Shown here in pieces: positions 31,902 through 61,394 of a stretch of DNA of 64,000 nucleotides. The notes beneath the pieces were generated by a model. It saw nothing but the letters and a program-made list of their open reading frames with translations. It searched no databases and was not told the origin of the DNA. The stretch's first letter is position 1. Each line of letters starts with the position of its first letter. The stretch comes from Clostridiaceae bacterium (GTDB lineage Bacteria; Bacillota; Clostridia; Lachnospirales; Lachnospiraceae): NCBI GenBank assembly GCA_902362865.1, contig CABIYE010000018.1, positions 1 to 64,000 on the forward strand. Reading direction: 5' to 3'. The translations under genes were made by a program, and so were the position numbers.

Positions 31902-31928
31902 ACAATACTCCCTCCGTAAGCAGATTTC

Positions 31929-32522: not shown

Positions 32523-32549
32523 ACAATACTCCTTCCGTAAGCAGATTCC

Positions 32550-33130: not shown

Positions 33131-33157
33131 ACCATACTCCTTCCATAATCAGATTTC

Positions 33158-33751: not shown

Positions 33752-33863
33752 ACCATACTCCTTCCGTAATCAGATTCCTTCTTTCAATAGCTGTGTTCAC
33801 AACACAGGCTCAGTTATAAAAACATTCTTAAGCCGTGTCGTGAACACTCTTCTCTCTTTTTAT

Positions 33864-36800
33864 TTAATAATATCTAGGGTCATGGCTTTTTACCGACCAT
33901 GAAACTTCAGGATAATACCGCGGATCCTTCGACTGTGAAGACCAGGAAGTTTGGACAGAATAATATCTTCGATCCCTTGACTGCGTCGACCAGGACGTCG
34001 TTTTTTCCTCAGGCGCCGTCACAAGCATTTTCGTTCCCATGGATACTGTGCCCGTACCGAGGGTCACGATATTATCAAAAGTCAGTGTTTTCAGTAGCTT
34101 CTCTCCCTCTGAAAAAACTTCCATATATTTATCCGGAATCGCACATACAGAGCCCAGGAATCCAAAACCAGCGCCAATCAATATTTTCCTTATATTGATG
34201 TCCTTTTGGCTTACAGCCTCTGTAACTCCTCCTACCACTGCACTTCCCACTAGGCGTATCATCTTATACTTAGATAATCCCAGTATTCCAGAAGCGGCGC
34301 CGGAGATGCCCCCTATAACAAAGGCTTTCCCCACATTTTCTCCATTCGAATACGCTTCTAATGCACTAAGTCCTGCATTAATCACGGCACTGCAGATGAT
34401 ACCGGCTGCCATTACTGCAAACATTCCCTGGGAATCTTCATAGTTCACCGGATTATTCAGGCAATATGCATACAAATTATACTGATTTAGATTGCCCTGC
34501 CCTGCTTTCAGCACATCTACATCATCCGGGCTGACGAACCTTCCGATCACCGGATCATAGAATCTGCTGTCTAGGTGATACAGCCCTGTCTCTTCATCAT
34601 AGAGATATTCTCTATAACGGAACGGATTCTTGGTACCGATATCTGTGCCGGATGTATCCGTCATGGAAATTGGATTTCCCCACGTATCATACCGATAGCT
34701 TACCACCTGGGTTCCATTGCTGTCAATGAGACCGATAATATCATTCTGAAGATTGTGGATATAATAGTAAGTCGTTCCATTCAGCTCTATGGAAAAGAGA
34801 TGTCCGTCCTGATCATAGACAAAATGCATCAAATCGTTTTCATCCTGAATCGCAAGAATGTCTTCCCCATTCCAATAATACTTAATAATATTTTCCGCAT
34901 TATGTCCATTTACAATATGCTTTTCAATACGTTTTCCTTCGGAATCATAAGCAAAGTAATAGGTCTTATCTTTCGTCAGATGCGTCAGATATTTCCTATC
35001 GTACCATAACATCTTCATTCCATCTCTATAGGTCAGAGGATTTCCCATTGCATCATAAGTAATTGTCTGCCCATTATAGCTGGTAATCTGATCCTTCCAC
35101 CCGGTATTTCCATAACCATAGGAAATTGTCTTTTGCACTGTCCCCAGGGTTCCGGTTGTATAAGCATACTCCTTCTTTGCAAGGATATTTCCACCCGCAT
35201 CATAGCTATAGCAGATGGACTTATTCAGCCATTGATTATTTTCCCGGGCTAATCTGTTCAGTCCGTCATAGGTATAAGATACTTTTAAAATATTATTCTC
35301 ATAAATCTTCGCAATGTTACCCAACGCATCGTATGTATACTTTAACTTATTGCTTCCGTTAGTAATTCCCTCCGGCAGGATTGTAGTCTGCCAATTCTCC
35401 TTTCCCTGTACATAAGTATAGGTACTTCTGTAATACTTGCCCGTACCGACAGAGATTGCTTTTTCTTTCAATCTGGCCATCTGGTCGTAAGACAGGACGC
35501 ACTTTCTAAAACCGTCCACGCGTATCCCGTACACCAGTCCCGGCAGCTCTCCTCCGGAAGCATTTCCGTACATATAACCGGTCTTTTTCGTAATTCCGCC
35601 AACCTTGCTGACTACCGATTCTACCCGGTTTTTGTCATCATAGCTGACCTGTAGTTTCTGCAGAACCTCATTATTTGTACTCTTTCTCTTCTCCATTGCC
35701 GTCATCCGCCCAATCAGGTCGTAATCATACTGGCAGGTATTCTCACGGCATAAATCTTTGTGAATTACCAGATTATCATATCCGTCATAAGCATTTTCAT
35801 ATACTGTTCTCTCATCCCCATCTGACTCTTTATGTTTTTGGGCAATCAGGCGGAAGTCCTTATCGTATTCATTTGTAATAACTTTACCATTTGCATAGGT
35901 CAGCGTTTTCCGAGGACCGTTATAAGGCAGATAGGTATAGCTTTCCAGCGCCGTATTTCCTACCTTCACCTTCGTCGGATTGCCAAAGACATCATATTCA
36001 AAATTATAGGAAAATCCATTATGGCCAATACTGCTTAAACGATCCCCTTTATCATACGTATACGTATTGCTGGTCGTTTTTCCATCTACGGCGGCGCTTG
36101 CCTGCCTCAACTGGTCTGTATCGGAATCATAAGCATAATTCGTTACATTCCCCTTTGCATCCGTTGTTTTCGTCAACAAGCGCTGACTGGAATCATAGGT
36201 ATTCGTAGTAGTATATCCTCTGTTATCTGTTACAGAAGCCACCTGCTTTCCGTTGCTTGTATGTGCCATGGAAGCTCTGATCTGCTTTCCACGGTTTTCC
36301 AGCACAAATCTCTTGTTTGGCGAATAATTGGAAATCGCCTGGCTTCCGTCAGTCACAATCCTTGCTCCGCTTCCCCAGGAATTTCCCATAATTCCCAGTC
36401 CTTCATTGGAAGCTTCATTCCAGATGGCATAATCTGTCCCCACCTTTTTAAACTGGAATTTCTGAGCTGTATTCCCACTTGAGAAGGGCCGCAGGATGAT
36501 TGCCGCGCGGTTAATCTGCGCGTCGTTTGCAATTCTTGTAAGAGCCATGGCCGGGGCGCATATTGGTCTGAGATAATAATTACCATTGCTATCTGCTTTC
36601 TGCAGCCGGAAGCTCTGTCCATCCGTACCGTTATAATAATACTGCTGGAGTACCGTTCCTGAAGTGGAATATCCTCCCGGCACGTCCAGATACTGTCCAC
36701 TGTGCCTTGCACGGATTGCAAAGATGCTTCCATCCTCCGGTTCGTCTGAAACCGTCGCCAGATCTGCCGGTTCCAAACACCATTTCTGGCGGTCATAACT

Positions 36801-39800
36801 GTCATTCGCTCCCCAGATTGTAACAAGCGCGCCATCTGCGGTACTGTTCGCCGCATTCGTCAGAACTCTTTTATCCTTACTGCATTTCGCCGCAATCTGA
36901 TAATCTCCCTTCCACTGAGAAATCAATTTGAATTTCTGCGCATCTTTTTCGCTATCATAAACTGCAATATCTACCTTTGTATTATCACTATTGCTGCCAT
37001 TTTGCACATTCAGCGCTTTCGTCGGATCATGCAGCGGAAGAAACCGCAAATACCCGGCGCCTGCATCTTCTGCTTTCCACTTCTGGTTTGTACTTCCCTG
37101 GAAAGCATTTAATTGTACCGCAGTTCCCGCTGATGTGCTGCTTCCCGGCACCTCCAGATATTTTCCCGACACTTTTTCCCGAATATAATAACACCTGCCC
37201 ACAACCAAAGCTCGCCTGCGTCTCTCTCCATAAGCGGTAGTCTGAACCGGATTACCATAAGTGTCATATTGGAACTGATATATCACCTGCTCGGAGCTTG
37301 CCGCCCGCTTCAGGTTCTGTTTCTCATCATATCCGTACTCAAAAGCGGTTCCTGTAATGTCTGACATTCTGGTAAGATTTTTGTTTTTATCGTAGGAGAA
37401 GCTGGCATTTGCTGCCGCTGTCCTTGCAGAAATCAAATTGCCCTCTTCATCGTATACATAGCTCTTTCCATCATCCCGGATAATCTGAATCCCATCAAAA
37501 TAAGCGTCATTTGCCTGATTTCCATAGAAGATATGGAACAAGATGGCACGATATTTCCTGGATGTATTTCCATCCCCGGCATCTGCACTGATGGTCTGGT
37601 TCACAAACTGCCAGTCTTCTACATGAGGATTGAACGGAATGCTCTCATACTTCGTTTTATACTGCCCATTCGCATCTTTGTCTTCATACTCAATCCCTAT
37701 CACCATGCCAAATTCTTTGCCCGGAATTCCTTTTCCTTTTGCCCATCCGCTAATGGAAAATACATCCTTTGCCGAGCCTTCTATCGGAATTCGTTTCCAG
37801 AAACCTTTCCGTTTCCCCGGTTCGCCATAAATACGCAGGGCGCTGCTTCCATATTTTCGCTCCGAGCTGTTCACACCGTCTGCATACAATGCAGAATTGG
37901 TAAGAATACCTGTGAAACTGGCAGGTATGGTGGCAGACCCACTTTCCAGCCGCTCAAAGCTTCCATTTTCCATGAGATTGAACTTATTCGCTATTTCTCC
38001 TTCTTCCAGTTGGAAACAGGTCATATAACAGGTTCCTGTTCCATGAGACAAAATACTGCGGATACGGATTCTCTTACATTCAGAAGGCACCGTAAAGCTC
38101 ACACTTCTTCTCTGCCATCCATCATCAATGCTGCTGTCCGTAGGTTCTTTTATGACTGCCGAGACTCCCAGAAATGTTTCCGCTCCACTGTCTTTGAGTC
38201 CATTAACCGTAATATATACTTCACCCTGAGAAATGGACGTTACTTTATAATAAGCAGAGACCGTATACTTACCGGGACTTACCTCCACAATCTGCTGTAC
38301 ACCTGTTTCATCATAAGCAACGCTGTTTCTTATCACTCTTGCCGATTTCTTTCCAATATAGCCCGTTCCTAAAACAATCTGAACCCGGCTGCTGTTTGCC
38401 GGATATTTTTCCCAATGATTCCAGCCATCTTCGAAACGAGTATTCAGCAGATGGTTCTGAATGGTTCTCGCCGTGGATCCCGCTCTGCTTAATCGGTTAT
38501 TTTTCTTTCCTTCAGTATAATAACCATAACTTGTTCCTTTTCCATCCTGGTCATAGACACACACCGGACGTCCGCTGGTATCAAACTGATAGGTATAGTA
38601 CCGGTTATCTTCTTTCTTATTAATATTTCCATCCAGTCCCGGCTCTTCAAAGATAGTCACATTGCCGTCACAATAGGTAACATTCACTTCTTTCCCCATC
38701 TGGCTCCCCACATGTTCGGTCATTTGCTTTACACGCTTTGTACCTCCATCATCCACATAACCATAATACATCTCATAAAGTTCCGGTGCCTTTACATACA
38801 TGAGAAGATGTGTATAATCACTCACTCCATATCCATAGCGGCTTTCCTTTCCATCCGGATAAGTAATGGACTTTAAATCATCTCCTTCATAAAAAAAGTT
38901 TGTTATCCGGTTAATTTCATCTTTGAGCATATAGAGCTTTCCGTCTGTATTATAAAAAAGCTTCAGATATGCCCCGGACGGATCCTTAATTCTGGACAGA
39001 TAACTGCCATACTTATCGCTTTCATAGAGATATTCAATTGTATTACCATTTGGGTCAATTTCTTTGCTGAGGTAACCGTCTTTTCGGAATATCATCTGTA
39101 CCTTTCCTTTTGTCTCCACTTTCCTGTAAGCAGTCTCATCCGAAGAAGATTCCTGTGTAATGATAAGGCCCAATCCGTCTTCATCTTTTAACCTGCTGCT
39201 ATCTTCCCTGTCTCTGTAGAAATAATGGTTTGTTCCATCTTCATCCGTATATACGTAAGGATAATCTGCAATCCCGGACGCACGTAATTCTTTCTGGGCA
39301 CTCAGTCTCCAACCGCATCCATATCGGCTATATCTGCCATTCGCTTCCTTTTTCTCTCTGTCCGCTGCATTATACACATGGGACAGACTGACCGGGAACC
39401 GATTCCCGCTTGTGACTGTATCCGGATGTACCACTACCAGATTTCCATTAAAATCATTGACATAACAGGTTCCGGCTCTTCCTACCCTCTGCTCATGATA
39501 GCTATAATAATCCTCCAGCCCTTTTGCATCACGGTAATAAAACATACAGAATGGATACATGTCTGTTGTAATACCGCCGCTTACCGGATGGTCGCTCGCA
39601 ACAAATCCTGCAGCTGCACTAACACTCTCATCATGCATTTTAAGACAGATTCCTAAATTATTTCCCTTATACCACTTGCGTACCTGCTTTGTGATATTAA
39701 AGGTTTTCGGCGCAGCATAGGTCACGCCCCCACTTACCACGCTTTTCACCTCTGCCCTATCCAGCACTCTGCTGTCATAAGACGGCTGATTATTCCACGT

Positions 39801-40940
39801 AGCAGAATTATCACTCCAGCTGCCGGTTACTTCATGCGCATTTACATAAAAACTATTTACTGTTCCCGGGAAAAACTGATACTGGTACATACACAGTTTT
39901 GCATCGTAAATAATCGCTCCTGCCGGAATCTGCGGAAGTGTATTTAGCACAATAAAGGAACGGCATCTGCCATACTCAGCGTTATTCCCCACTACAAAGG
40001 AACCATAGCCGCCGGTAACACTGCTGTTGGGATACTTTTCTCTTACAAAAGTGTCCCTGATATTTGCCGTCTGCCGTATTGTCTCCACATTCGGATCAAT
40101 CACAACCGGATATTGGCGCTCCTTTGCCTTCAGCCATTCCTGATCTACCCGGATAGTAAGGATGGTTTCTCCTTCCTTCACCGTTTCCATCTCATAAGAT
40201 ACGGCTGCGCTGTAACTTCCCGCCGCATCATACATACACGGTGCCTTCAGACGGAAGATTTCCTCATCTTCACCCTTTTTTGCAGCACGGAAGATTAATT
40301 CTCCGTTTTCCTCTTTGGATAGCGTAAGTCCTTTATGGTTTAAGCAGAACCGTAACGGTTCTTCTGCCGCCGACGCCTCTTTCAGGATTACATTTTCTTT
40401 CACCGTCTCTCCCTGAATCAGGTATTCCAGATCCACACCTTCACGGATATTTTCATAGATACCACCGCTTACCGTCCCTGCCAGATGCATCTGCTTCCGG
40501 TTCCATGCAGAAGCATTAATCCTTTCTTCTGCTTCCGGTATCTCTCCGGCGATGTCTGCGGATTCATTCTGTCTTTCATAAATGCGGAAGACTGTTTTCT
40601 TTTTCTTTTCTTTTTCATCTGCCTGCACATTCTCCAATCCCCAGGAAAGCTTATGGCTTCCTTTCTTCAAAGTAACCATTTTAGGGGAATCCCCATGCTT
40701 TGCAAACTTTACTTTCACACAAGCCGCTTTATTTTCATAACCTTCTTCTCCCGTATTTTCTTCCCTGAGCGAGTTATCTATCTCTTTCCACTCTCCATTT
40801 TCCTCATAGTGAACCGGGTACGGATAGACTGCGGCAATTCCACCATGATTTTCTGTCAGGAAATATTTCGTATTCCTGTCTCTTTTCTCTTTCTGTTCCG
40901 CAAGAATCTTTGATTCTGCTGCTTTCTTTATTTCATTCAT
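33864..40940 (-). CDS. Giant RHS-repeat protein with lectin domains
   Basis: About 2358 residues. Order: N-terminal region without an obvious signal peptide; DNRLRE-type domain at about 285-470 (DTFVREKYPNSS...); YD/RHS repeats; two carbohydrate-binding-like sandwiches at about 830-960 and 985-1150; two ricin-type lectin domains at about 1245-1555 (QNQKW-like repeats); more RHS repeats. The RHS core is near 2105-2165 (YDEETGLYHLDSRFYDP, GRFVSPDDVD), then a short hydrophobic C-terminus. The final 45 residues carry three repeats ending in D-x-R-Y-Y. The RHS shell usually encloses a C-terminal toxin, but here the tail after the core is about 200 residues, glycine/alanine-rich and unrecognised. 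Start MNEIKKAAES follows AAAGG by 12 bases; an ATG four codons earlier is possible. Confidence 0.88.
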   Translation of the reverse strand: MNEIKKAAESKILAEQKEKRDRNTKYFLTENHGGIAAVYPYPVHYEENGEWKEIDNSLREENTGEEGYENKAACVKVKFAKHGDSPKMVTLKKGSHKLSWGLENVQADEKEKKKKTVFRIYERQNESADIAGEIPEAEERINASAWNRKQMHLAGTVSGGIYENIREGVDLEYLIQGETVKENVILKEASAAEEPLRFCLNHKGLTLSKEENGELIFRAAKKGEDEEIFRLKAPCMYDAAGSYSAAVSYEMETVKEGETILTIRVDQEWLKAKERQYPVVIDPNVETIRQTANIRDTFVREKYPNSSVTGGYGSFVVGNNAEYGRCRSFIVLNTLPQIPAGAIIYDAKLCMYQYQFFPGTVNSFYVNAHEVTGSWSDNSATWNNQPSYDSRVLDRAEVKSVVSGGVTYAAPKTFNITKQVRKWYKGNNLGICLKMHDESVSAAAGFVASDHPVSGGITTDMYPFCMFYYRDAKGLEDYYSYHEQRVGRAGTCYVNDFNGNLVVVHPDTVTSGNRFPVSLSHVYNAADREKKEANGRYSRYGCGWRLSAQKELRASGIADYPYVYTDEDGTNHYFYRDREDSSRLKDEDGLGLIITQESSSDETAYRKVETKGKVQMIFRKDGYLSKEIDPNGNTIEYLYESDKYGSYLSRIKDPSGAYLKLFYNTDGKLYMLKDEINRITNFFYEGDDLKSITYPDGKESRYGYGVSDYTHLLMYVKAPELYEMYYGYVDDGGTKRVKQMTEHVGSQMGKEVNVTYCDGNVTIFEEPGLDGNINKKEDNRYYTYQFDTSGRPVCVYDQDGKGTSYGYYTEGKKNNRLSRAGSTARTIQNHLLNTRFEDGWNHWEKYPANSSRVQIVLGTGYIGKKSARVIRNSVAYDETGVQQIVEVSPGKYTVSAYYKVTSISQGEVYITVNGLKDSGAETFLGVSAVIKEPTDSSIDDGWQRRSVSFTVPSECKRIRIRSILSHGTGTCYMTCFQLEEGEIANKFNLMENGSFERLESGSATIPASFTGILTNSALYADGVNSSERKYGSSALRIYGEPGKRKGFWKRIPIEGSAKDVFSISGWAKGKGIPGKEFGMVIGIEYEDKDANGQYKTKYESIPFNPHVEDWQFVNQTISADAGDGNTSRKYRAILFHIFYGNQANDAYFDGIQIIRDDGKSYVYDEEGNLISARTAAANASFSYDKNKNLTRMSDITGTAFEYGYDEKQNLKRAASSEQVIYQFQYDTYGNPVQTTAYGERRRRALVVGRCYYIREKVSGKYLEVPGSSTSAGTAVQLNAFQGSTNQKWKAEDAGAGYLRFLPLHDPTKALNVQNGSNSDNTKVDIAVYDSEKDAQKFKLISQWKGDYQIAAKCSKDKRVLTNAANSTADGALVTIWGANDSYDRQKWCLEPADLATVSDEPEDGSIFAIRARHSGQYLDVPGGYSTSGTVLQQYYYNGTDGQSFRLQKADSNGNYYLRPICAPAMALTRIANDAQINRAAIILRPFSSGNTAQKFQFKKVGTDYAIWNEASNEGLGIMGNSWGSGARIVTDGSQAISNYSPNKRFVLENRGKQIRASMAHTSNGKQVASVTDNRGYTTTNTYDSSQRLLTKTTDAKGNVTNYAYDSDTDQLRQASAAVDGKTTSNTYTYDKGDRLSSIGHNGFSYNFEYDVFGNPTKVKVGNTALESYTYLPYNGPRKTLTYANGKVITNEYDKDFRLIAQKHKESDGDERTVYENAYDGYDNLVIHKDLCRENTCQYDYDLIGRMTAMEKRKSTNNEVLQKLQVSYDDKNRVESVVSKVGGITKKTGYMYGNASGGELPGLVYGIRVDGFRKCVLSYDQMARLKEKAISVGTGKYYRSTYTYVQGKENWQTTILPEGITNGSNKLKYTYDALGNIAKIYENNILKVSYTYDGLNRLARENNQWLNKSICYSYDAGGNILAKKEYAYTTGTLGTVQKTISYGYGNTGWKDQITSYNGQTITYDAMGNPLTYRDGMKMLWYDRKYLTHLTKDKTYYFAYDSEGKRIEKHIVNGHNAENIIKYYWNGEDILAIQDENDLMHFVYDQDGHLFSIELNGTTYYYIHNLQNDIIGLIDSNGTQVVSYRYDTWGNPISMTDTSGTDIGTKNPFRYREYLYDEETGLYHLDSRFYDPVIGRFVSPDDVDVLKAGQGNLNQYNLYAYCLNNPVNYEDSQGMFAVMAAGIICSAVINAGLSALEAYSNGENVGKAFVIGGISGAASGILGLSKYKMIRLVGSAVVGGVTEAVSQKDINIRKILIGAGFGFLGSVCAIPDKYMEVFSEGEKLLKTLTFDNIVTLGTGTVSMGTKMLVTAPEEKTTSWSTQSRDRRYYSVQTSWSSQSKDPRYYPEVSWSVKSHDPRYY

Positions 40941-40969
40941 TATCTTATTCATCCTTTCTTTTTTAATTG

Positions 40970-41002
40970 GGGACGTAGTAAAGTGTAAAAGTACTACGTC
41001 CC
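40970..41002. repeat. Inverted repeat in the RHS leader
   Basis: A perfect 11-bp inverted repeat, GGGACGTAGTA and TACTACGTCCC, with an 11-base loop, lies 30 bases upstream of the RHS start codon. There is no T-run, so it is not a terminator. It could be an operator or an RNA hairpin in the leader. Confidence 0.7.
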
Positions 41003-41330
41003 TCGTTAATATTTTCACAATTCTTCCGGAAGTTTTTGTTGTGGAATTACGTAGATATTACAGTTTTGTTATCCTCACGGCCGTTGAAGACAAAGCCACA
41101 CTTGACAACCCTTCCATAGCATGTTATCGTATGCACAGAACAAATGTTTCTTTACTGTTTTCCGCAACTCTTAACTATACACTACACGGAAATTCGTATA
41201 TTGTCAAGCTTTAATTTGCGAATTTCCGTATTTTTTTATTTTCCTTTTTTAGTTGACAAATTCCACCATTTGATATATTGTATATTTAGTTGAACAAGTC
41301 CACTAAAATAGAAAAGGAGAAAATTGGATT
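41003..41330. promoter_or_regulatory. Divergent promoter region between RHS and MarR genes
   Basis: Minus strand: TTGACA (41202-41207), 17-base spacer and TAGTGT (41179-41184), a promoter for the RHS gene. This promoter is partly covered by a long-loop inverted repeat, ACGGAAATTCG (41186-41196) with CGAATTTCCGT (41219-41229), followed on the plus strand by a run of seven T. Plus strand: TTGACA (41253-41258), 17 bases and TATTGT (41276-41281), then a MarR-like site TAGTTGA...TCCACTA (41287-41305) just before the marR gene. The last site suggests autorepression. Nothing else is seen between 41003 and 41150. Confidence 0.6.
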
Positions 41331-50251: not shown

Positions 50252-52849
50252 TTATTGAATATTCTCTAATCTCGCAATAAATTCCGCTCTTTTTTCTTCG
50301 TTATAGAAAGGCATGCCAATAATTCTTGTATCTTCATTCTCAAAGAAAATATGGGAGTCGCTTTTTTCGGTAATCTCAAGCAAAAAATCCTCTTTCCATT
50401 TATCTCTTTCGAGGAGTTGGCCACCCTTTGGCTCGATAAATATTTGCCACGATACATTTCCAGTTTTCCTGTCATTAGCAAATAGCAAGAAGTCCGGCTC
50501 AAATGCTCGTCCGTCGTCAAATGAATATATCGTAACAGCCTTTTCGTTGCGCAAGAGATAGATGTCGCTCCATTTTTCAGAAAGATTCTCTATCATGCTA
50601 TCTAGTGTTACAACAAGTGATTTTTCTTCGCTAGTTCCGTAATTTTCCTTATATGCGTACCAGTCTTTTTGTGCAAGATTTAACCTGTATTTTGGATTTT
50701 GCGCAATGAATTGAGGTATGCCATATTCCTTATCACTTCCAGCATCTACGGTATGATACTTACGTCTTATTGAATCTTTGAACAGCTGCGATATCGGTTT
50801 AGCAATAAACTGCTCGGTTCCTATATATCGTTCGTCATTCTGGTCAATTTGAGCTTCTATGACTGAAAGAACATATTCAGCTATATATAGCTTTTGTCGA
50901 GAAGTTAGGCTATTCTTGGTATTTTTTGAGCCCGTGACAATTATTTTTACTTTGCCAACCATAGTCATAAACTCTTCAATACTATTTAAAGCGAATATCT
51001 TTTTAGATATCCGGTTGAATCGAAACGCCTTATTCTTTGCGATAGCATGGCGGAGTATATTAGCCGGGATTAATCTACCAAAATCAAATTCAAGATTTAC
51101 TATCTCGTCTGCACTATAATGCTCATTTTGGACTTCATCAAAAACCGACGTTATATGCCCAATGTTTGTAGGAAGAGATATTTCGACAATCTTCGGAAAA
51201 TCAAAACCATATAGAGTAGCCTTGCGAATATCTTTAATAGATGCTTCGGTTCGCGATACGCGCTCATTTATATACACAACGCCATCGGTATAGGTTCGCG
51301 TCTTCTTAAAGGATTCTTTTAATTCTAATGTCCTTTCGACGTAATTCTCATCCATTAATCCAGACGTGACTAATGCTTGTCGAATTTCTTGAATATATTT
51401 TGGATTACTTGCCGAGTGATAATGAAGTTGCTCTATGAGCCGAAGTTCTTCATTTTCGTTGTTGTCGAACTTCCGGACATATTTCTGCTCAGGGTTATCT
51501 ACTACGAATGGATAGTAGCGTGCTCCACGACCAATAAGCTGCGCTTCTCTAATCGTTGTCTTTCCCGGAGCGCCATTCCTTGCATCGCGAGTATCATATA
51601 ACCGAACGATATCAAAAAGATTTAAGACATCCCATCCCTCATTTAGCATATCTACGGCGAAAATTGCACGAATTTCATTGTCCTTATCTTCGAGAGAATT
51701 CAGCCTAATCTGCTTGTCTGAATCAATATTATTGCCATCTATGAGGAGTAGCCGTTCCGACATAAAATCGTTCTTTAATTCCTCAACAATATCAGTCAAT
51801 TCTAGGTTAATCTTTTTAAAAGCGTCTGCCAATATATTTGAAGCACCGGATTTCTGCTCTATTAAGTCATTTACTGACAAAGAAGTTATTAGTTCCCTAA
51901 ACATTCGAAAATTAGCTTTGTTTTCTGCGATGGTTTTCGATTTAAATAAAACAACTGGCTTTAGCCAAATACCATGCCTGAGAGCAACTTTCTTTCGGTA
52001 TTGCGAAATAATAATCGCTTGAAGCATACGGCTCCTAAGATCAGAGTCGACATCGTAGATGAAGACATCCTTGCTGTAGCCATCTTGACGAAAGTTTTTT
52101 AGGTCATATCTGTAGATAATACGGTCGAAATATTTATAGTAAATATTTGGATCTTCTAAATCAATTGTTGCTGTAAATTCAAGGAGGATGGGATCTTTCG
52201 CAATATCCATAATATTAGAAATAGTCGACTCCCAACTACGGTTATCTTCTAAATCATCTTTTGACAGAAGCGTAGAGGAATTATTATGATGCGCTTCATC
52301 GCCGATTAATACAATTTTCTTATTATCGAACTCTTCATATGAAAGCTTATTTTCGCGAGGAATATTCAGATCTGTATGTAATCCTTGAATGGTCGTGAAA
52401 ATAATATTAATTGCATTATTATCTGTCTCAGAAAAATTCTCAACCTCGCAAATCTCAACTTTCTCGCCATCAATTTGAATATTATTCGAAAACAAATATT
52501 TGCTACTTCCGGGATTGGAGAAGTTATCTCGCGTCTTCTCGATGATATTCTTGCTGTTTACAAAGTAGATAAAATTCCGATAGCCTCGCTTATACAGATC
52601 AAGTATAAGGCTCGCCATAATTAAAGTCTTACCAGAACCAGTTGCCATATTAAATAACAACTGAATTGGAACTTTTTTGTTTACCGAATCATTATCTATA
52701 TAGTGCATCCATCTGCCAATGGCTTGTTCTTGGTATGGACGTAATTTATGGGAGAGGTTCTCACGAATATGCTTAGGCGTCGACGGGAAAGATATTCCCG
52801 ATGCCGTCACCATGTTATATTTCTCGTATAGTGGTTTATCTGGAGTCAT
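50252..52849 (-). CDS. Type III restriction enzyme, Res subunit
   Basis: An 865-residue helicase-nuclease. Walker A ATGSGKT at 69-75, DEAH box (GDEAHHNN) at 184-187, the late helicase motif AVDMLNEGWDVLNLFD, and ARYYPF after QLIGRG. The C-terminal PD-(D/E)XK nuclease is seen in FEPDFLLFAN and FIEPKGG (about 783-809). It cuts DNA when paired unmethylated sites are met, using ATP for movement. Starts two bases after the mod gene, so the two are made together. Confidence 0.9.
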   Translation of the reverse strand: MTPDKPLYEKYNMVTASGISFPSTPKHIRENLSHKLRPYQEQAIGRWMHYIDNDSVNKKVPIQLLFNMATGSGKTLIMASLILDLYKRGYRNFIYFVNSKNIIEKTRDNFSNPGSSKYLFSNNIQIDGEKVEICEVENFSETDNNAINIIFTTIQGLHTDLNIPRENKLSYEEFDNKKIVLIGDEAHHNNSSTLLSKDDLEDNRSWESTISNIMDIAKDPILLEFTATIDLEDPNIYYKYFDRIIYRYDLKNFRQDGYSKDVFIYDVDSDLRSRMLQAIIISQYRKKVALRHGIWLKPVVLFKSKTIAENKANFRMFRELITSLSVNDLIEQKSGASNILADAFKKINLELTDIVEELKNDFMSERLLLIDGNNIDSDKQIRLNSLEDKDNEIRAIFAVDMLNEGWDVLNLFDIVRLYDTRDARNGAPGKTTIREAQLIGRGARYYPFVVDNPEQKYVRKFDNNENEELRLIEQLHYHSASNPKYIQEIRQALVTSGLMDENYVERTLELKESFKKTRTYTDGVVYINERVSRTEASIKDIRKATLYGFDFPKIVEISLPTNIGHITSVFDEVQNEHYSADEIVNLEFDFGRLIPANILRHAIAKNKAFRFNRISKKIFALNSIEEFMTMVGKVKIIVTGSKNTKNSLTSRQKLYIAEYVLSVIEAQIDQNDERYIGTEQFIAKPISQLFKDSIRRKYHTVDAGSDKEYGIPQFIAQNPKYRLNLAQKDWYAYKENYGTSEEKSLVVTLDSMIENLSEKWSDIYLLRNEKAVTIYSFDDGRAFEPDFLLFANDRKTGNVSWQIFIEPKGGQLLERDKWKEDFLLEITEKSDSHIFFENEDTRIIGMPFYNEEKRAEFIARLENIQ

Positions 52850-52851
52850 TT

Positions 52852-54585
52852 TTATGCTCCGTAGAATTCTTTGTTATGTTTTTTGTCTGCTTCAGAAATA
52901 TTGTAGGTTTTATCTTCAATCTCGGAATAATTCAAGTAGAGCGTGTTGTTATCTATGAGATCAAGAAGGATATGCTTTTTATCCGCTAATGATAATTTTT
53001 CGAACTCATCCGCATTAACTTTCTTCGGATCTACGCGATAGGATAAGAATGATGAATGAAGAACTTCATCGAGCAACTCCGACATATTGTCTCCGTTGCT
53101 CATTTTTATGCGCTCACGGAATTTATTTGCGTCATTCTTGATATTGCAATAAACGAATGAGCCGCCACCGGTCCAATTAACGGATTTCGATATGCCGCCC
53201 TTATGGCCGCCAATAACGTCCTTAAGGCGCTTTATGGAAATATCTTCAATGTAATGCATCTGTTCAATACCAATGTACTGGCGCCCCATCTTGTGTGCTA
53301 CGGCGGCAGTCGTTCCGGAACCAAGGTGATAATCTAGGACAATATCACCAGGATCGGTAACGGATCCAATAATCCTCTGCAGTAACGCCTCTGGTTTTTG
53401 GCCACCAGAAAATTTCGTCCTTTCCGAAAGGTTTTTAGGATCAAGAGCAATAATGTCCTCCCAGACATCATCAATAATATACCCATTCACTTGATATATC
53501 ACCTCACCTTCATCCGGTTGGCCATACTGCTTTATATATTTCCTTAAGTATGCAGCAAATCTGCTATCTGTGGTAGGATGATTACCATATCTTATTTTAT
53601 TTCCATCCACGATAAATTTACCCCACCTCTTATAATCCACGGTCTCCTCGATGTTGTCTTCGTAAATTAGATTAAACTTTGGTCTATTATGTTTCTTGTA
53701 CCAGAATATGGTGTCGTGTTTTTTGGGAAAATAATCTTTTACTTGGCCGACATATGTTCGATAGCGCCAAATTATCTCATTCATGAGATTATCCTCACCG
53801 AAGATTTCGTCGCAAAGCACGCGTAAATAACCATCTTGATTTTCGTCACAATGAATAAAGATAGAGCCATCGTCTGAAAGTAATTCCTTTGCCACCTGCA
53901 ACCGGTTCTTTATAAATGTAAGCCAAGTTGAACGAGTAAATCTATCGTTATACATAAAGCTATCGTTGTCGGTATTGAACGGCGGATCAATATAGATAAG
54001 CTTAACCTTGCCAGCAAAGCGTTTCTTGAGCGAATGAAGGACAATGAGGTTATTGCCTTCTATAATAAGATTATCGTCTGGTTTTAGCTCATCTAATTCA
54101 TGCTCGCCGTCTTTGTCGTAGCGTTTCCAGTTAGTAAAGACTTTGTCATCGAGAATGGTGGTTATTTGATCCGGAGCGAGAACTTCATTAAAAAAGACTT
54201 CGTCGCGCTTTTGATCCTCTTTAGTCTGACCGCCTTCTAGAACACAATCTTTATACGGCCAGTTTAGTACGACCCGGTTATCGTCGGATATAAAATTATC
54301 ACCGGAAGCCAAGCCGATCTTTGAAGAGAATCGCGTGTATGAGTCCGGCAAGAATTCCTTTTGCGAAATAAACTGAAGAAATACATCTTTCTTGAAAATT
54401 AATCCAGCTTCAGTCTCTGTGAAAAATAATTCCTTAATAATGTTATCGCTTAACAATAAGCTAAACAATCCGGCGTCATATTTTCTTGCCAGTTCGGCAA
54501 GCATATTTTTATTCAACTTCTCATCAATTACAAATTCGCTATTGCTTTTTAATAGCTCAGCTAATCTATCATAGTATTTTTGCAT
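52852..54585 (-). CDS. Type III DNA methyltransferase, Mod subunit
   Basis: A 577-residue N6-adenine methylase of the beta class. Catalytic motif IDPPFN at 199-204 comes before the AdoMet motif LDYHLGSGTT at 417-426. The target-recognition region lies between them (about 270-400). It reads and methylates the site for the Res subunit. GGAG five bases before the ATG supports the start. It is the first gene of the pair. Confidence 0.92.
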   Translation of the reverse strand: MQKYYDRLAELLKSNSEFVIDEKLNKNMLAELARKYDAGLFSLLLSDNIIKELFFTETEAGLIFKKDVFLQFISQKEFLPDSYTRFSSKIGLASGDNFISDDNRVVLNWPYKDCVLEGGQTKEDQKRDEVFFNEVLAPDQITTILDDKVFTNWKRYDKDGEHELDELKPDDNLIIEGNNLIVLHSLKKRFAGKVKLIYIDPPFNTDNDSFMYNDRFTRSTWLTFIKNRLQVAKELLSDDGSIFIHCDENQDGYLRVLCDEIFGEDNLMNEIIWRYRTYVGQVKDYFPKKHDTIFWYKKHNRPKFNLIYEDNIEETVDYKRWGKFIVDGNKIRYGNHPTTDSRFAAYLRKYIKQYGQPDEGEVIYQVNGYIIDDVWEDIIALDPKNLSERTKFSGGQKPEALLQRIIGSVTDPGDIVLDYHLGSGTTAAVAHKMGRQYIGIEQMHYIEDISIKRLKDVIGGHKGGISKSVNWTGGGSFVYCNIKNDANKFRERIKMSNGDNMSELLDEVLHSSFLSYRVDPKKVNADEFEKLSLADKKHILLDLIDNNTLYLNYSEIEDKTYNISEADKKHNKEFYGA

Positions 54586-55476: not shown

Positions 55477-56670
55477 CTACATTAACTTATTTTTATCAAA
55501 TCCAGGAGTTTCTATCCAAAATTCAGGAGCTTTATCGTCATTGACAACTCCCGCCGTAGATAGATTCTCTTTAGAGAGATAAATAGCGGGCTCCCCATCA
55601 TTCTCGGAACTTGTTTGCCGTTTATAAATATACTTATATCCTTCTCTTTTTTTCTGTTCCAGAAATTCATCCATATCATCGAAATTAACAACTTCTTTCG
55701 ATATCAGGCGCGGCAGCTTGGCTTCGAATTGGAGTATTCGCCCCGATAATATGTGCTCATCTATGGGAATCACAAACATCGATTCTTTAGGTATTTCATA
55801 TTTTTCAAAAACATGTTTAATTCCCTCTATTGAAGATGTTTTTAGTTGCTTTATCTCTAATATGGCAGAAAAGAAGCACAGAATCCTCAAGCCATAGAGC
55901 TCATCTTCAGCCATTTTGTCTCTACATTTTAGAATTGCTAACGCGAAATACTTGTAGTCATCATCTGTGAATCTAGAGTCGTTAACTTGTTTGAGGGCCG
56001 CATTCTTATGTTCGTCTATAGTGCCATCCAGCGCAGCTCTACACATTTCGCGAAATATTTCCCCCGCTTGATAACTCACTGTATTATTTTCTAATTCCCG
56101 AATAGCCTTTTCAACGTCCCGGCTTAAATGTGGGATATATTTTACATAATCTTCACGCAATATAGCGACTTCTAATGCATGCGCAAGAAATAAACAAGAC
56201 TCCTCTAGATTGTCATCTTTTAATGCGGATACTGCTTCTGAATACTCTTGGTTAAATTGTTCTCGTATTTCCGCAGGAATAGAAAGATCATCTTGAGTAA
56301 GATTCCAAATTTCTTTTAAAAGATTATAGTGGTCATACTTAGAGATTGCGCTAGGAAATATTCTCTGAAAATGTTGCTGTATTAATTTAAGGGAATCTTT
56401 TCTCCGAAAAGTGTTCTGAATATCGTCTGCGATTTTGCGACCACCCTTCCTATATCTTGAAAGCGTTGCTGCATCGATGGAACTATCGCCTTCTCCAATT
56501 AAATTCTGCTTTTCAGATTCATTCATGGCAGCACACAGTAGAATATATTTATCTACGTTATCGGCGTTAGCTTTAATAAATCTGATAGATTCTATTTCTG
56601 GATTAAAAGTACCCCTGCAATATTCTCTAAATATTTTTTCATAATTCATATAATTTAAATTTTTTTCCAT
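55477..56670 (-). CDS. Unrecognised 397-residue protein with an N-terminal HTH-like motif
   Basis: Soluble and mostly helical. Near residue 65 the segment SSIDAATLSRYRKGGRKIADDI reads like the recognition helix and turn of a Cro/XRE-type DNA-binding domain. The middle is TPR-like (LKDDNLEESCLFLAHALEVAI). The C-terminal third (YKYIYKRQTSSENDGEPAIY) is unrecognised. Start at MEKNLNY, with GAGGG eight bases upstream. It is divergent from the 56.8-60.3 kb operon and faces it across about 200 bases that hold three TTGACAT repeats, so it is a candidate regulator. A defence effector is an alternative. Confidence 0.5.
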   Translation of the reverse strand: MEKNLNYMNYEKIFREYCRGTFNPEIESIRFIKANADNVDKYILLCAAMNESEKQNLIGEGDSSIDAATLSRYRKGGRKIADDIQNTFRRKDSLKLIQQHFQRIFPSAISKYDHYNLLKEIWNLTQDDLSIPAEIREQFNQEYSEAVSALKDDNLEESCLFLAHALEVAILREDYVKYIPHLSRDVEKAIRELENNTVSYQAGEIFREMCRAALDGTIDEHKNAALKQVNDSRFTDDDYKYFALAILKCRDKMAEDELYGLRILCFFSAILEIKQLKTSSIEGIKHVFEKYEIPKESMFVIPIDEHILSGRILQFEAKLPRLISKEVVNFDDMDEFLEQKKREGYKYIYKRQTSSENDGEPAIYLSKENLSTAGVVNDDKAPEFWIETPGFDKNKLM

Positions 56671-56686
56671 AATAATATCCCTCTTC

Positions 56687-56716
56687 ATGTCAACAAAAAT
56701 GTCAACTCAATGTCAA
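56687..56716. repeat. Three TTGACAT direct repeats
   Basis: ATGTCAA occurs at 56687-56693, 56699-56705 and 56710-56716 (TTGACAT on the minus strand), spaced 12 and 11 bases, about one helical turn each. They lie 17-46 bases upstream of the 397-residue gene's start. They could be regulator-binding sites or stacked -35 elements. Confidence 0.65.
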
Positions 56717-56866: not shown

Positions 56867-57004
56867 ATGATGGAATCTCTGAAACTGAGAAGCGATATCG
56901 TCTCTATGGCTGATATCGGTCCTAAAGACGGCAGTAGTGTAGGTCAGGATACTGATTTTACGCGTTCTCTTCCGCCAGGAACCTTTAGATCTAAAAGTTT
57001 CTAA
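56867..57004 (+). CDS. 45-residue peptide opening the JAB-E1 operon
   Basis: The ATG follows AAAGGAGGTGAGATCT, the best ribosome site in the area, so it is probably expressed strongly. The 45-residue product (starts MMESLKLRSDIVSMADIGPK, ends LPPGTFRSKSF) has no signal peptide, membrane helix or cysteine. It is too short for a beta-grasp ubiquitin-like fold and lacks a di-glycine end. It could be a peptide substrate for the adenylating enzyme downstream, a leader peptide controlling the operon, or a precursor trimmed by the JAB protease. A perfect hairpin follows its stop. Confidence 0.5.
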   Translation: MMESLKLRSDIVSMADIGPKDGSSVGQDTDFTRSLPPGTFRSKSF

Positions 57005-57016
57005 TTTTACATCTTT

Positions 57017-57044
57017 TTGCGAAGAGTCTACTGGCTCTTCGCAA
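57017..57044 (+). promoter_or_regulatory. Intercistronic hairpin
   Basis: A perfect 10-bp stem, TTGCGAAGAG with CTCTTCGCAA, around loop TCTACTGG. No T-run follows. It separates the 45-residue gene from the next ribosome site and may tune relative expression or mRNA stability. Confidence 0.65.
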
Positions 57045-57070
57045 TCTTCTACAGAAAGAAGGTGCAAAGA

Positions 57071-57400
57071 ATGTACGGAGAACACGTAAGATTGCTCTAC
57101 CGAGATATAGATGACTGCATGACATTTGATTTTGTATTCTTTGATCTTGGTCTTCGAACGGAATCTTGGCGCATCTATATCATTAAAAATATCGATTACG
57201 GTAATCGACCAAGTGATGGGCACAGTACGCACAGACTGAAGGACGAAGATGAAACCTATGAATATATCTGCTGGGATGGCGAATTGATGAGTCTCGAGGA
57301 CGCAAAGCAAGTTGCGGCTGTTTGGGCGGATTGCACATCTAGATATATTAGAGGACTACGAAGTTTCGACTCATATGTTTCGCGGCTCACCGGAAGTTAA
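57071..57400 (+). CDS. 109-residue protein, candidate E2-like
   Basis: A small soluble protein with its own site (AGAAGG). The N-terminal half looks like alternating strands (FDFVFFDLG, SWRIYIIKN). The C-terminal half holds THRLKDEDETYEYICWDGEL followed by SLEDAKQVAAVWADCTSRYI. Histidine followed by ...YICW-D-G resembles the histidine/active-cysteine arrangement (Cys-67) of bacterial E2-like proteins encoded with JAB and E1 genes. That reading is mine from motif spacing and context, not from a family match. It could instead be the ubiquitin-like partner. It sits 43 bases before the JAB-E1 gene. Confidence 0.5.
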   Translation: MYGEHVRLLYRDIDDCMTFDFVFFDLGLRTESWRIYIIKNIDYGNRPSDGHSTHRLKDEDETYEYICWDGELMSLEDAKQVAAVWADCTSRYIRGLRSFDSYVSRLTGS

Positions 57401-57443
57401 TGTAGGCATATCTAATACACAAATAAACACGGAGGATAAAAAT

Positions 57444-58793
57444 ATGTTTTTAAAGAAAATTAAAGAAGGCTTAAAACCCACACCAGACACGCTTAAAGAC
57501 TTGCAGAAATCACTCGCATATCAAACCCCTGAGCAGCTTGCCATGCTTGGATCGTCGGACGGAAAAGAGGTAGATGTCACGTTCTATATTAGTAAATCAA
57601 AGTCTACGCAAATTAGTTGCGAGCCGGATGTTGAAATTTGCAACAAAGTTATTCAGGAGTGGCATAGAAAAGGCATTGAATTTTGCGGATTTGCGCATTC
57701 GCATCCGGGCGCCTATTCACGACTGTCCGTTTCAGATATAGAATATGGCGGCAAAATCATGGATACCTTAGACATGGATAGCATCGAATTGCCGATCGTC
57801 ATATTAGACCCGCGACTTGACGGTGGCTGTACTGTTTTCTGGTATACGCTCTATCATGACAGAAGCTTCATTGGCAATCCTCGTGAAGTCTATACATTGC
57901 CTGGAGATCAACCCGAGATGCCAGAAAATTTTCATTCAAGAATTAGTAAGACGCTTCCGATTGAGATACTGAAAGATTCCACTATCATTCAGATTGGCTG
58001 TGGCGGTTCGGTCGGAGCTACAGAGGCTTTAGCAAGATGTGGAATCGGCAGGTTTATACTTATAGACCCGGATATTTGCAATCCACATAATATCCTAACG
58101 CAGAGATCATATTTGGCTGAATCGGGCCAAGCAAAAGTGAAAGCTCTCGCAAATAAGATTCTCAATGTTAATCCAAAAGCAAAAGTAGATATTTATTGGA
58201 AGGCTATTACTGACGATACTACGATCGAAGAATTTACGAACATGCTTCCAAAGGATATCTTAGAAGACTTTGGCAAGGTATTAGTAGTGGCGAGCACGGA
58301 TAATTTTCATGCGCAGGATGCGATTCTTAATATTGCATTAAAATTAGGTGTCCCGTTCATGGCGCCTCAGATGTATGAAGGTGGATTAGCTTCGGAAATT
58401 GTGTTTTATTACCCTGGCGTCACTAAGACTTGTCCTAAATGTATTTTACATAGTCGATATGAAGCATATAAAAAAGGCTACAAGAACACGGTAACTTCAG
58501 AAGGGACTATTTATCCATCAGTATTGCAGACGAATGCTATCGAGGTGCAAGTCGCATTAATGTTGCTACTATATCACAAAGGCGACTATAGATATTCAGG
58601 TATGCTGGATCGTGTTGCGGACCGCAATCTTGTACTTTTAAGATTGGCGCCGAACGCCGGCGAAGCATATGGCTTAAATTTTCTCGATACTGCAATGGAT
58701 GAGAGATTCTCTTTCTTCGGTGAAGCATTATGGGTTCCTGTAAAACCGATGGAAAATTGTCCTATCTGTAACTGTAATGAAGTAGTTGCATAG
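57444..58793 (+). CDS. JAB deubiquitinase-like/ThiF-E1 fusion protein
   Basis: A 449-residue fusion. Residues about 40-150 are a JAB/MPN metalloprotease with the complete JAMM motif: His-85, His-87, Ser-95 and Asp-98 (AHSHPG...SVSD). Residues about 178-445 are an E1/ThiF adenylating domain: nucleotide loop IGCGGSVG (184-191), LIDPD (207-211), the R-x(9)-K pair of QRSYLAESGQAK, and DN at 286-287. Two CxxC pairs (330/333 and 439/442) should bind zinc. There is no obvious thioester cysteine outside these pairs. Combining activation and removal in one chain is typical of bacterial ubiquitin-like pathways. CGGAGG supports the start. Confidence 0.88.
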   Translation: MFLKKIKEGLKPTPDTLKDLQKSLAYQTPEQLAMLGSSDGKEVDVTFYISKSKSTQISCEPDVEICNKVIQEWHRKGIEFCGFAHSHPGAYSRLSVSDIEYGGKIMDTLDMDSIELPIVILDPRLDGGCTVFWYTLYHDRSFIGNPREVYTLPGDQPEMPENFHSRISKTLPIEILKDSTIIQIGCGGSVGATEALARCGIGRFILIDPDICNPHNILTQRSYLAESGQAKVKALANKILNVNPKAKVDIYWKAITDDTTIEEFTNMLPKDILEDFGKVLVVASTDNFHAQDAILNIALKLGVPFMAPQMYEGGLASEIVFYYPGVTKTCPKCILHSRYEAYKKGYKNTVTSEGTIYPSVLQTNAIEVQVALMLLLYHKGDYRYSGMLDRVADRNLVLLRLAPNAGEAYGLNFLDTAMDERFSFFGEALWVPVKPMENCPICNCNEVVA

Positions 58794-58809
58794 CTTGGAG
58801 GTGATTCTA

Positions 58810-60300
58810 TTGTTGGATTACGAAGTATTTAAAATGGCAGATTTATCGGAACTTAAAGATGCGATGGATACGCTGGATGATAAGCCTATTGGCGCTACTT
58901 ATGATTACGAATGTCGCCTTACGGAATCTTGCATACCGAGAGAGCTGACTGTTAAGTTTTGGAAACCAAGTCCTAATACATATGGACTGTTTACAGATCC
59001 GCACTTTGCGTATTCGGGAGGTAACTTGTTAATTAAAATGCTTTCCGATGTTCATGCACTCAAATTTGATTGCTGGAATACTTTTGAGCAGGGACTGCGG
59101 TTAATCGGCGAGGGGGATAATGTATCCCCCGCTCCTTCACTAAACACTCCATCTGTGGGGCAAACTCCGCAATTAGAGTCAGATGAAGGCATGATGCCAC
59201 GGACAGACGTCTCTACTATTACGGACTGGGATTTAATTTCAATGCCAGAAAGCAATACCGCTGTTCGCACCGTAGATTATCTCGACATTCTCAGCAAATT
59301 GAGCCAGAGCATCATGGGACAAGAAGATCAGCTTAAAACTATTTCTTTTATTACCGCTCAGCATGTCAACAAGCTGAAGCCTAATAAGCCAGTATCTTTT
59401 ATGTTCTCTGGGCCGCCTGGTGTTGGAAAATCTGAGACTGCGAAGGTCTTAGCATCTGCTCTCACAGAGCTTACGGGACATCACTATTCTGAATTGAAAA
59501 TAGATTTTAATACTTTCACTGAAGCTCATACTGTGCATAGACTGACTGGAGCGCCTGCGGGATATATAGGATATGACGACGAGCCGCTTTTTGAAACAAT
59601 AGCGAAAAATGAGAGGACAGTCGTGGTGGCTGACGAAATCGACAAAGCGCATCCAGAGGTATTGAAGATATTTATGTCCATATTGGATGCGGGCGAATGT
59701 ATTGCCAATAAACCTAGACCTGATGGTTCTCGGGAATATAACTTTAAAAACTGTATCTTTATTTTTACTTCAAACTACAACCTTGCATCAGGCGATAGTT
59801 CAGTGTTCGATAAGCAGCGTATTGGATTTATCGTACGTGATTTCGCCGAATCTTCGGACACATCTGATGAAGGCGTAACTGTAGATTATGAAAACGCCGA
59901 GCAAAAAGAAATCGCAAAAACTCTGCCTATGCAGATATATGAGAAAAATGAACAAGCTCGTAAGAACTTTGTGAAAGTCGGAACTTTGAGAGAAATCGCA
60001 TCAAGATTCCAATGTTTTGTTAACTTTGATCCATTATCCAAACAGGCAAAGTGCAAGATTTTGGCGAAGCAAATTGTGGAATCAGGACTTGAATACTCCC
60101 ACTCCATCTCATACATAGCGCCGGGTATTATGCAAGGAATTATCGATGCGGCAATGTCGGGAGACAGCTTGACCGTCCGATCCTTCCGAGCCATTATTGA
60201 GGGTTATCTTGCCCCGCTTTTTGCTAGCACGGAAATACTGGAAAACCAAACTTATCGTCTTGAAGGCACCTTGGATGCTCCTCGAATGATACCGCAATAG
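58810..60300 (+). CDS. Single-ring AAA+ unfoldase (ClpB-D2-like) with a novel N-domain
   Basis: About 496 residues. The start is a TTG with GGAGGTG five to six bases upstream; the next ATG has none. Residues 1-90 form an unrecognised domain (YDYECRLTESCIPRELTVKF) and 95-165 a polar linker. The AAA+ module follows: Walker A FSGPPGVGKSETAK (about 201), pore loop GYIGYD (about 250), Walker B VVVADEIDKAHPE (about 272), sensor 1 FIFTSN and a C-terminal small domain. The pore loop and DEIDKAHPEV are characteristic of the second ring of ClpA/ClpB. No ClpP-docking loop is evident. It lies 16 bases after the JAB-E1 gene. Confidence 0.85.
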   Translation: MLDYEVFKMADLSELKDAMDTLDDKPIGATYDYECRLTESCIPRELTVKFWKPSPNTYGLFTDPHFAYSGGNLLIKMLSDVHALKFDCWNTFEQGLRLIGEGDNVSPAPSLNTPSVGQTPQLESDEGMMPRTDVSTITDWDLISMPESNTAVRTVDYLDILSKLSQSIMGQEDQLKTISFITAQHVNKLKPNKPVSFMFSGPPGVGKSETAKVLASALTELTGHHYSELKIDFNTFTEAHTVHRLTGAPAGYIGYDDEPLFETIAKNERTVVVADEIDKAHPEVLKIFMSILDAGECIANKPRPDGSREYNFKNCIFIFTSNYNLASGDSSVFDKQRIGFIVRDFAESSDTSDEGVTVDYENAEQKEIAKTLPMQIYEKNEQARKNFVKVGTLREIASRFQCFVNFDPLSKQAKCKILAKQIVESGLEYSHSISYIAPGIMQGIIDAAMSGDSLTVRSFRAIIEGYLAPLFASTEILENQTYRLEGTLDAPRMIPQ

Positions 60301-61199: not shown

Positions 61200-61394
61200 A
61201 TGAACTCTCCAGAAAGCCTGATTTCAAGAATCCTGAAGATAGCAGTCTCACTCGTCATCTCGGCTTATCTTATCAAGATGAGTGTCTGTATTATAGCGAG
61301 CGTTTGGAAAATCATTGCACTCATCGCTGTCATTGGCATTGGCCTCTACATCGCCATTCGTATCTGGCGGAACCGGCATGGCGGGCAATGGTAG
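61200..61394 (+). CDS. Two-helix mini membrane protein
   Basis: A 64-residue protein with two hydrophobic helices (LKIAVSLVISAYLIKMSVCI and VWKIIALIAVIGIGLYIAI) and a basic end. An overlapping frame starting at 61193 is also open, but its product is irregular and Cys/His-rich without pattern, so I prefer this one. It begins seven bases after the methylase stop and lies directly before the coupling ATPase, which itself lacks membrane helices. Confidence 0.55.
   Translation: MNSPESLISRILKIAVSLVISAYLIKMSVCIIASVWKIIALIAVIGIGLYIAIRIWRNRHGGQW

Follow-up and report, generated by a model that had tools for sequence, protein, structure and literature searches.

A four-gene module linking a short recurrent peptide with JAMM-E1, E2-like and Clp-type proteins is a candidate peptide-tagging system

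Gene content of the operon

The window analyzed here is a stretch of 64,000 nucleotides from a Clostridiaceae bacterium (assembly GCA_902362865.1, contig CABIYE010000018.1, positions 1 to 64,000). At positions 56867-60300, it carries four plus-strand genes that encode a peptide of 45 amino acids (aa), a small E2-like candidate (hereafter E2L), a JAMM domain fused to an E1/ThiF domain (JAMM-E1), and a Clp-type AAA+ protein (Table 1). An initial annotation, made from the sequence alone, had placed these genes with their ribosome sites in one operon, and a check of the open reading frames and ribosome sites found all of them in that order. The operon probably resides in a mobile element, since genes for an MT-A70 methyltransferase-like protein and a type IV coupling-protein-like protein (both from Pfam) sit downstream of it. 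The related locus L005 has the same layout, followed by a Replic_Relax gene.

Table 1 Features of the operon and its immediate flank in the window
Feature	Position	Strand	Evidence or remark
Possible regulator of 403 aa, transcribed divergently (context)	55477..56688	-	Similar gene in the equivalent position of L002, L005 and L006 (phmmer 1e-10 to 2e-41)
Threefold direct repeat of ATGTCAA in the gap between the divergent genes, predicted operator-like	56687..56716		Repeats at 56687, 56699 and 56709
Peptide gene, 45 aa, ATG start	56867..57004	+	Ribosome site AAAGGAGGT
Perfect 10-bp inverted repeat (hairpin) in the gap between the peptide and E2L genes	57017..57044	+	Repeat search
E2L, 109-aa E2-like candidate, ATG start	57071..57400	+	H54 and C67, candidate catalytic pair
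JAMM (N-terminal) - E1/ThiF (C-terminal) fusion, 449 aa, ATG start	57444..58793	+	JAMM motif, E1 adenylation residues
Single-ring Clp/Hsp100-type AAA+ protein, TTG start at 58810 (or a nearby start)	58810..60300	+	Ribosome site GGAGGTGA
Family-specific N-domain of the AAA+ protein	58810-59121	+	Model with a predicted local distance difference test (pLDDT) score of 90.5
RIGF, ClpP-docking-type loop of the AAA+ protein	59818..59829	+	Aligned with the [ILV]GF loop of non-ClpB Clp proteins

The four genes form a conserved module

Relatives were retrieved with the JAMM-E1 protein alone. This yielded 20 further modules: two on contigs of a viral collection, 17 on genome contigs, and L025, an additional copy from the genome that also holds L006. 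With the window, the total is 21 modules, or about 13 lineages by our own grouping; near-relative loci are L013-L015; L017, L018, and L021; L005 and L006; and L001, L009, and L025. L003 and L004, repeats of L001 and L002, were dropped. The contig of L018 ends ahead of the AAA+ gene, no sequence is available upstream of E2L in L001 and L010, and L021 and L045, two contigs of genome G019 that each hold a piece of JAMM-E1, were counted as one module.

The neighbor tabulation proposed in the initial annotation gave a clear outcome. E2L is adjacent to JAMM-E1, or at most 3 kb away, in 21/21 modules (for L021, it lies on L045 beside the second JAMM-E1 piece), and the AAA+ gene adjoins in 20/20 (the cut L018 excluded). 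Only JAMM-E1 was used in the retrieval, and the recurrence of these neighbors greatly exceeds what chance would give. The annotation had also considered that the genes might occur independently of each other. This was examined for E2L, and all 27 family matches lie within 3 kb of JAMM-E1, in 17 genomes that were all picked for holding JAMM-E1.

Homologs of the coupling-protein and methyltransferase genes of the window were seen in L001, L002, L005, L006, L008, and L009. Five loci with at least 6 kb of downstream sequence (L012, L014, L015, L016, and L019) have neither, and the remaining loci do not reach far enough to judge; the conserved unit is therefore the four-gene module and not one element type. 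Other coupling-protein genes were found upstream in L012 and L014. Modules with their own peptide occur in contigs titled Clostridia and Kiritimatiellae. L013 is titled Bacteroidales and is probably misbinned, given how closely it matches L014.

A short peptide with a recurrent unit accompanies the enzymes

A short peptide is encoded in all 19 modules for which upstream sequence is available (L001 and L010 excluded), either before the enzymes or fused to JAMM-E1. Its motif is mostly GG...[LV]xxG[TV][FW][HRC], with one group ending in GWH. The peptides of the window, L005, and L006 have ...SLPPGTFR near their end, and the window peptide has homologs in the latter two loci (9e-13 and 2e-13, respectively). 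We propose that the modifier unit of the window peptide spans about residues 21-41, ending in ...SLPPGTFR and followed by SKSF. This unit of about 21 residues compares with 11-15 residues in most relatives. No Pfam match was obtained for the 45-aa peptide, nor did the peptides of five relatives come near a cut-off.

Tandem arrays of units of 11-15 residues were found in 8 of the 19 modules. The L012 peptide has four GGRQGDLDGGTWH units, that of L020 has five GGESVPSGTFR units, and GGRQGDLNEQGDGWH is present five times in L014 and six times in L013. In L017 and L018, a single unit ends a peptide of 22 aa, and the peptide of L009 and L025 carries GGREGQELPSGVFC. The peptide ends exactly on the last residue of the unit in 10/19 modules. 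Fusions were also seen: in L016, three units are joined in frame to the start of JAMM-E1, and the database protein P0179 has the unit GGDEIPAGTFH, a hydrophobic stretch, and then an E2L domain. When units were compared codon by codon in the eight arrays, 230 synonymous and 5 replacement differences were counted in 738 comparisons, those within an array not being independent of each other.

A protein search with the L012 peptide retrieved 57 proteins up to an E-value of 10, of which 40 were below 1e-3. A unit of the GG[RHE]Q type recurs among these 57 homologs with variable leaders and tails, in a search that was itself seeded with the unit; P0137 and P0138 look unrelated. At the DNA level, a pattern for GG[RS]QG[DE] had 30 matches in 12 of 17 genomes, 28 of them at the module and two elsewhere in genome G007, and the reversed control pattern gave 2 matches.

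The peptide gene is followed by a predicted hairpin, with z <= -2 in 8 of the 12 loci folded (-5.23 for the window region 57005-57070 and -5.7 for L017). Such a hairpin might suit the production of more peptide than enzyme. The best reading of these data is that the peptide is a recurrent candidate modifier standing in ubiquitin's place. The initial annotation had noted that no ubiquitin-like protein is present; indeed no beta-grasp gene was recognized in the operon, and the annotation had made little of the peptide.

Two observations on the peptides should be added. Massiliimalia massiliensis has two modules (L006 and L025) with different peptides, ...SLPPGTFRNS and ...GGREGQELPSGVFC. In L011, a 57-aa frame between the peptide gene and E2L (259-429) contains GARQGDLEDD, which resembles the peptide unit, and then a hydrophobic segment.

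JAMM-E1 retains both sets of catalytic residues

The isopeptidase and the adenylating domain had been described as lying in one chain, and the motifs of both are intact in the 24 aligned sequences (the window and 23 of the 83 homologs listed). E30, H85, H87, and D98 of the JAMM motif are present in 24/24 and S95 in 23, with Thr in the remaining one; the adenylation residues GxGG, D210, N216, Q220, K231, and D286 are present in 24/24. There are two CxxC pairs (C330, C333, C439, and C442), and no conserved cysteine beyond these pairs was found in JAMM-E1. The ThiF domain was identified by Pfam (2.4e-16). The JAB half has no Pfam match, matches the PADLOC JAB profile (4.9e-5) and, when searched with a family profile, matches JAMM1 and BubCD among solved structures. 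MccB is one of the solved chains to which the E1 domain comes near (7.5e-16).

In the database proteins P0009 and P0014, JAMM-E1 is broken after ...YPGVTKT and continues into the C-terminal part of a serine recombinase (PF13408 listed), and in P0080 it is cut at another place and continues into a recombinase-like part. From these sequences, other mobile elements seem to integrate into the JAMM-E1 gene.

E2L is a candidate E2

The search for E2L homologs found 174 proteins, of which 120 were listed and included in the residue counts; the alignment (A4) was built from 17 sequences of the loci and the window together with 55 of the 120. Cys67 is kept in 121/121 sequences and His54 in 120/121. The predicted fold bears a weak likeness to E2 enzymes, and in it a strand meander is followed by the His, a short strand, the Cys, and a long helix. 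No significant match to E2s was obtained with Foldseek or by sequence. In a second-look structural ranking, 46 of 50 rows were E2 entries, none of them significant singly, compared with 3 of 47 in the same run on the model of the AAA+ N-domain. Tentative support for the E2 assignment proposed in the initial annotation comes from the near-invariant His/Cys pair and the E2-rich ranking.

It is rather likely that E2L carries the peptide on Cys67. An alternative, compatible with the other readings discussed below, is that E2L is a small binding or scaffold protein, with transfer performed by the E1 chain or not at all. We give this about one chance in four in view of the missing significant matches; the near-invariant residues in their E2-like order and the contrast between the two rankings argue against it.

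The modules of L012 (8893-9938), L013, L014, L015, and L020 (13190-14100) contain E2L two or three times, and some of the copies have a hydrophobic N-terminus; in L012-L015, a hydrophobic protein of 80 aa is encoded between the copies. The hydrophobic starts suggest that these E2L proteins may act at the membrane.

The AAA+ protein has a ClpP-docking-type loop

The AAA+ protein contains an AAA_2 domain (Pfam 7.9e-28). Among solved chains, its AAA+ domain is nearest to ClpC and ClpE; the best NCBIfam match is ClpA, and the PADLOC matches are PDC-M37B and DolB. The motif RIGF (residues 337-340) falls in the same alignment column as LGF/VGF/IGF of seven Clp proteins from the relative genomes that score below the NCBIfam ClpB cut-off, whereas an eighth Clp protein, above that cut-off, lacks the GF loop. 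The loop reads [ILMF]GF in 18/20 module AAA+ proteins and is missing in L010 and L020. The initial annotation had called this protein a ClpB-D2-type unfoldase: a Clp-type single ring was found, but one nearest to ClpC and ClpE and with a loop that the one ClpB above the cut-off lacks.

ClpP docking through this loop is established for ClpA, ClpC, and ClpX. ClpP genes were found in 17/17 relative genomes searched (in G016 by a partial match), and G012 and G013 have an extra ClpP gene 4 kb from the module. By analogy, the module AAA+ protein would dock on ClpP through the loop, and we consider it probable that the two work together. The module protein shares the AAA_2 domain and the loop position with ClpC, ClpE, and ClpX but differs from them in having a single ring and a family-specific N-domain of 104 residues; a structure comparison of the N-domain model gave no identified fold. 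The tag, untag, and unfold logic of the initial annotation remains the best reading found, except that, because of the loop, proteolysis is a more likely end point than a Cdc48-like extraction.

In three other places, L014 5684-6262, L015 5687-6265, and L062 8014-8616, a ClpP gene lies right before, and overlaps, a VirD4-like coupling-protein gene.

Comparison with known systems

The Bub operons (BubCD, PDB 9ea4) and the type 6e systems also have JAMM N-terminal to E1/ThiF in one chain, and the family profile matches BubCD over parts of both domains (E 2e-8). In the available portions of Iyer et al. 2006 (PMC1779556), the JAB-E1 fusions of type 6e occur alongside beta-grasp modifiers and E2/RWD proteins; the word "unfoldase" is absent from these portions, and "peptide" is used twice. 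The beta-grasp domains of type 6e number one to three, with a length of 70-75 residues, and are accompanied by an E2/RWD-like protein. The module instead combines a short peptide with a small protein of another kind and a Clp-type AAA+ protein. For Bub, a 2026 paper (PMC13373217) reports, in its accessible part, hundreds of operons and states that protection against phages was not shown. The sections available of a 2020 survey (PMC7159879) associate ubiquitin-like systems with FtsH and ClpN domains, and these sections make no mention of a short-peptide modifier conjugated through E1 and E2. Searches of open-access PMC, which mostly leaves out subscription articles and preprint servers, turned up no publication that we recognized as describing this module.

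Compared with the Cap2/Cap3 proteins of type II CBASS (cyclic oligonucleotide-based antiphage signaling system) and with Bil, the module has no nucleotidyltransferase and no recognized ubiquitin-like protein, while a separate E2L, the AAA+ protein, and the peptide are present. We did not file it as a member of Bub or Bil because their defining beta-grasp modifier was sought in the operon and not found. By its enzymes, the module is a variant of the bacterial E1-E2-JAMM systems, and it would deserve its own class if conjugation were shown.

Two systems handle very small partners. MccB of the Microcin C7 pathway has an E1 fold and acts on a very short peptide, whose C-terminus it activates, as described in the accessible part of a 2025 review (PMC12250964). 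An E1-fold enzyme paired with a very short peptide is also what we find in the module. Microcin C7 has a single precursor and an antibiotic product, and we know of no JAMM, E2-like, or ClpP-type partner of MccB; the module differs in these respects. Pupylation works alike, in that a small unstructured tag is read by an AAA+ unfoldase feeding a protease (Pup, PafA, Mpa, and the proteasome). Pup has about 64 residues and is joined by PafA rather than by E1 and E2; the module differs by its E1/E2-like enzymes and its ClpP-type loop. No PafA-type ligase was present among the Pfam matches of the operon, the host genomes not having been searched for PafA.

A proposed tagging pathway and its alternatives

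In the pathway that we infer, from its chemical steps to ClpP docking and targets, the first gene would make a very short modifier peptide, as a tandem array in some relatives. The JAMM domain, or a host protease, would cut the peptide from its precursor after His, Arg, or Cys. The E1 domain would adenylate the freed C-terminus and, because E1 itself keeps no conserved thioester cysteine, hand the peptide to Cys67 of E2L, which would join it to target proteins; JAMM could remove it again. Finally, the Clp-type AAA+ protein would read the tag, probably by its own N-domain, unfold the target, and thread it into ClpP. That the peptide is a substrate of JAMM-E1 is highly probable, and that it ends up on proteins is favored, if less strongly. 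All steps together, as a mobile-element peptide-tagging and ClpP-degradation pathway, have about an even chance of being right, since the steps are correlated.

Among the alternatives for the module as a whole, biosynthesis of a ribosomally synthesized and post-translationally modified peptide (RiPP) survives best, although we consider it unlikely. The E1-like domain would then modify or close the peptide, JAMM would trim a leader or spacer, the product would be secreted, and the AAA+ protein would serve in maturation or self-protection. A small precursor with tandem core units, the hairpin behind its gene, and the action of the E1-like relatives MccB and PaaA on peptides all fit this. RiPPs usually have a conserved leader and a variable core, and the recurrent unit with varying leaders and tails among the 57 homologs is the reverse of this pattern, allowing for the unit-seeded search. 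Moreover, E2L and a ClpP-type unfoldase are constant partners. No dedicated exporter or immunity gene was noticed when the neighbor lists were read by eye, without a systematic family search of the neighbors. The terms JAB domain, JAMM, AAA, and E2-like are absent from the available part of the review of ThiF-type RiPP enzymes cited above (PMC12250964).

Less likely still, a beta-grasp ubiquitin-like protein encoded by the host could be the modifier, with the peptide serving the enzymes as an adaptor, inhibitor, or docking tag. BubCD and type 6e share the JAMM-E1 architecture, and type 6e carries beta-grasp modifiers; a docking role would also be consistent with the fusion of units to JAMM-E1 or E2L. 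Tandem multiplication suits a released unit better than a docking tag, and the module keeps its own peptide in contigs titled both Clostridia and Kiritimatiellae; moreover, the operon itself has no recognized beta-grasp gene, host genomes not having been searched for such proteins. The peptide is even less likely to be processed into a pheromone or an intracellular signal that the divergent regulator-like protein would sense, with the enzymes tuning its level: the regulator-like gene and the operator-like repeats do lie beside the peptide gene, but apart from the window, phmmer recognized the regulator-like gene in no loci other than L002, L005, and L006, whereas the peptide and the three enzymes are constant, and a signal needs no E1, E2L, or unfoldase.

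Returning to the tagging pathway, its strongest form would be a micro-ubiquitin: a conjugated modifier of about 11-21 residues, too short to fold, handled by E1, a miniature E2-like protein, JAMM, and a dedicated ClpP-coupled unfoldase, with the whole tag-and-degrade pathway on one mobile element. We hold this form tentatively, at slightly less than even chances. All E1-E2 pathways known to us move a folded beta-grasp protein. If about a dozen residues replace this protein here, the modifier is separable from the fold, and the origin of ubiquitin-like signaling becomes testable in a four-gene system. Should the ClpP link also be true, this would be a conjugated bacterial degradation signal independent of Pup and transfer-messenger RNA (tmRNA). 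Such a small tag would be handy for engineering proteins in laboratory strains.

The pathway may serve to clear specific host or competitor proteins to the benefit of the element, in defense, counter-defense, or exclusion. Restriction genes found upstream hint at its purpose; they are of type III in the window and of type I in L002, L005, and L006. The hydrophobic starts of some E2L proteins are a further hint.

Other features of the surroundings

The 403-aa divergent protein has no Pfam family above its cut-off. The type III restriction-modification genes of the window lie at 50252-54585, and the type I genes found upstream instead in the three loci named above indicate a swapped restriction slot. 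Between the methyltransferase and coupling-protein genes, the window encodes a hydrophobic protein of 64 aa (61200-61394), also found at the same place in L001, L002, L005, L006, L008, and L009. Further upstream on the minus strand (31308-41018) are a gene for a YD-repeat protein of 2384 aa, rearrangement hotspot (RHS)-like by reading, and, adjoining it, four tandem paralogous genes for proteins of about 200 aa.

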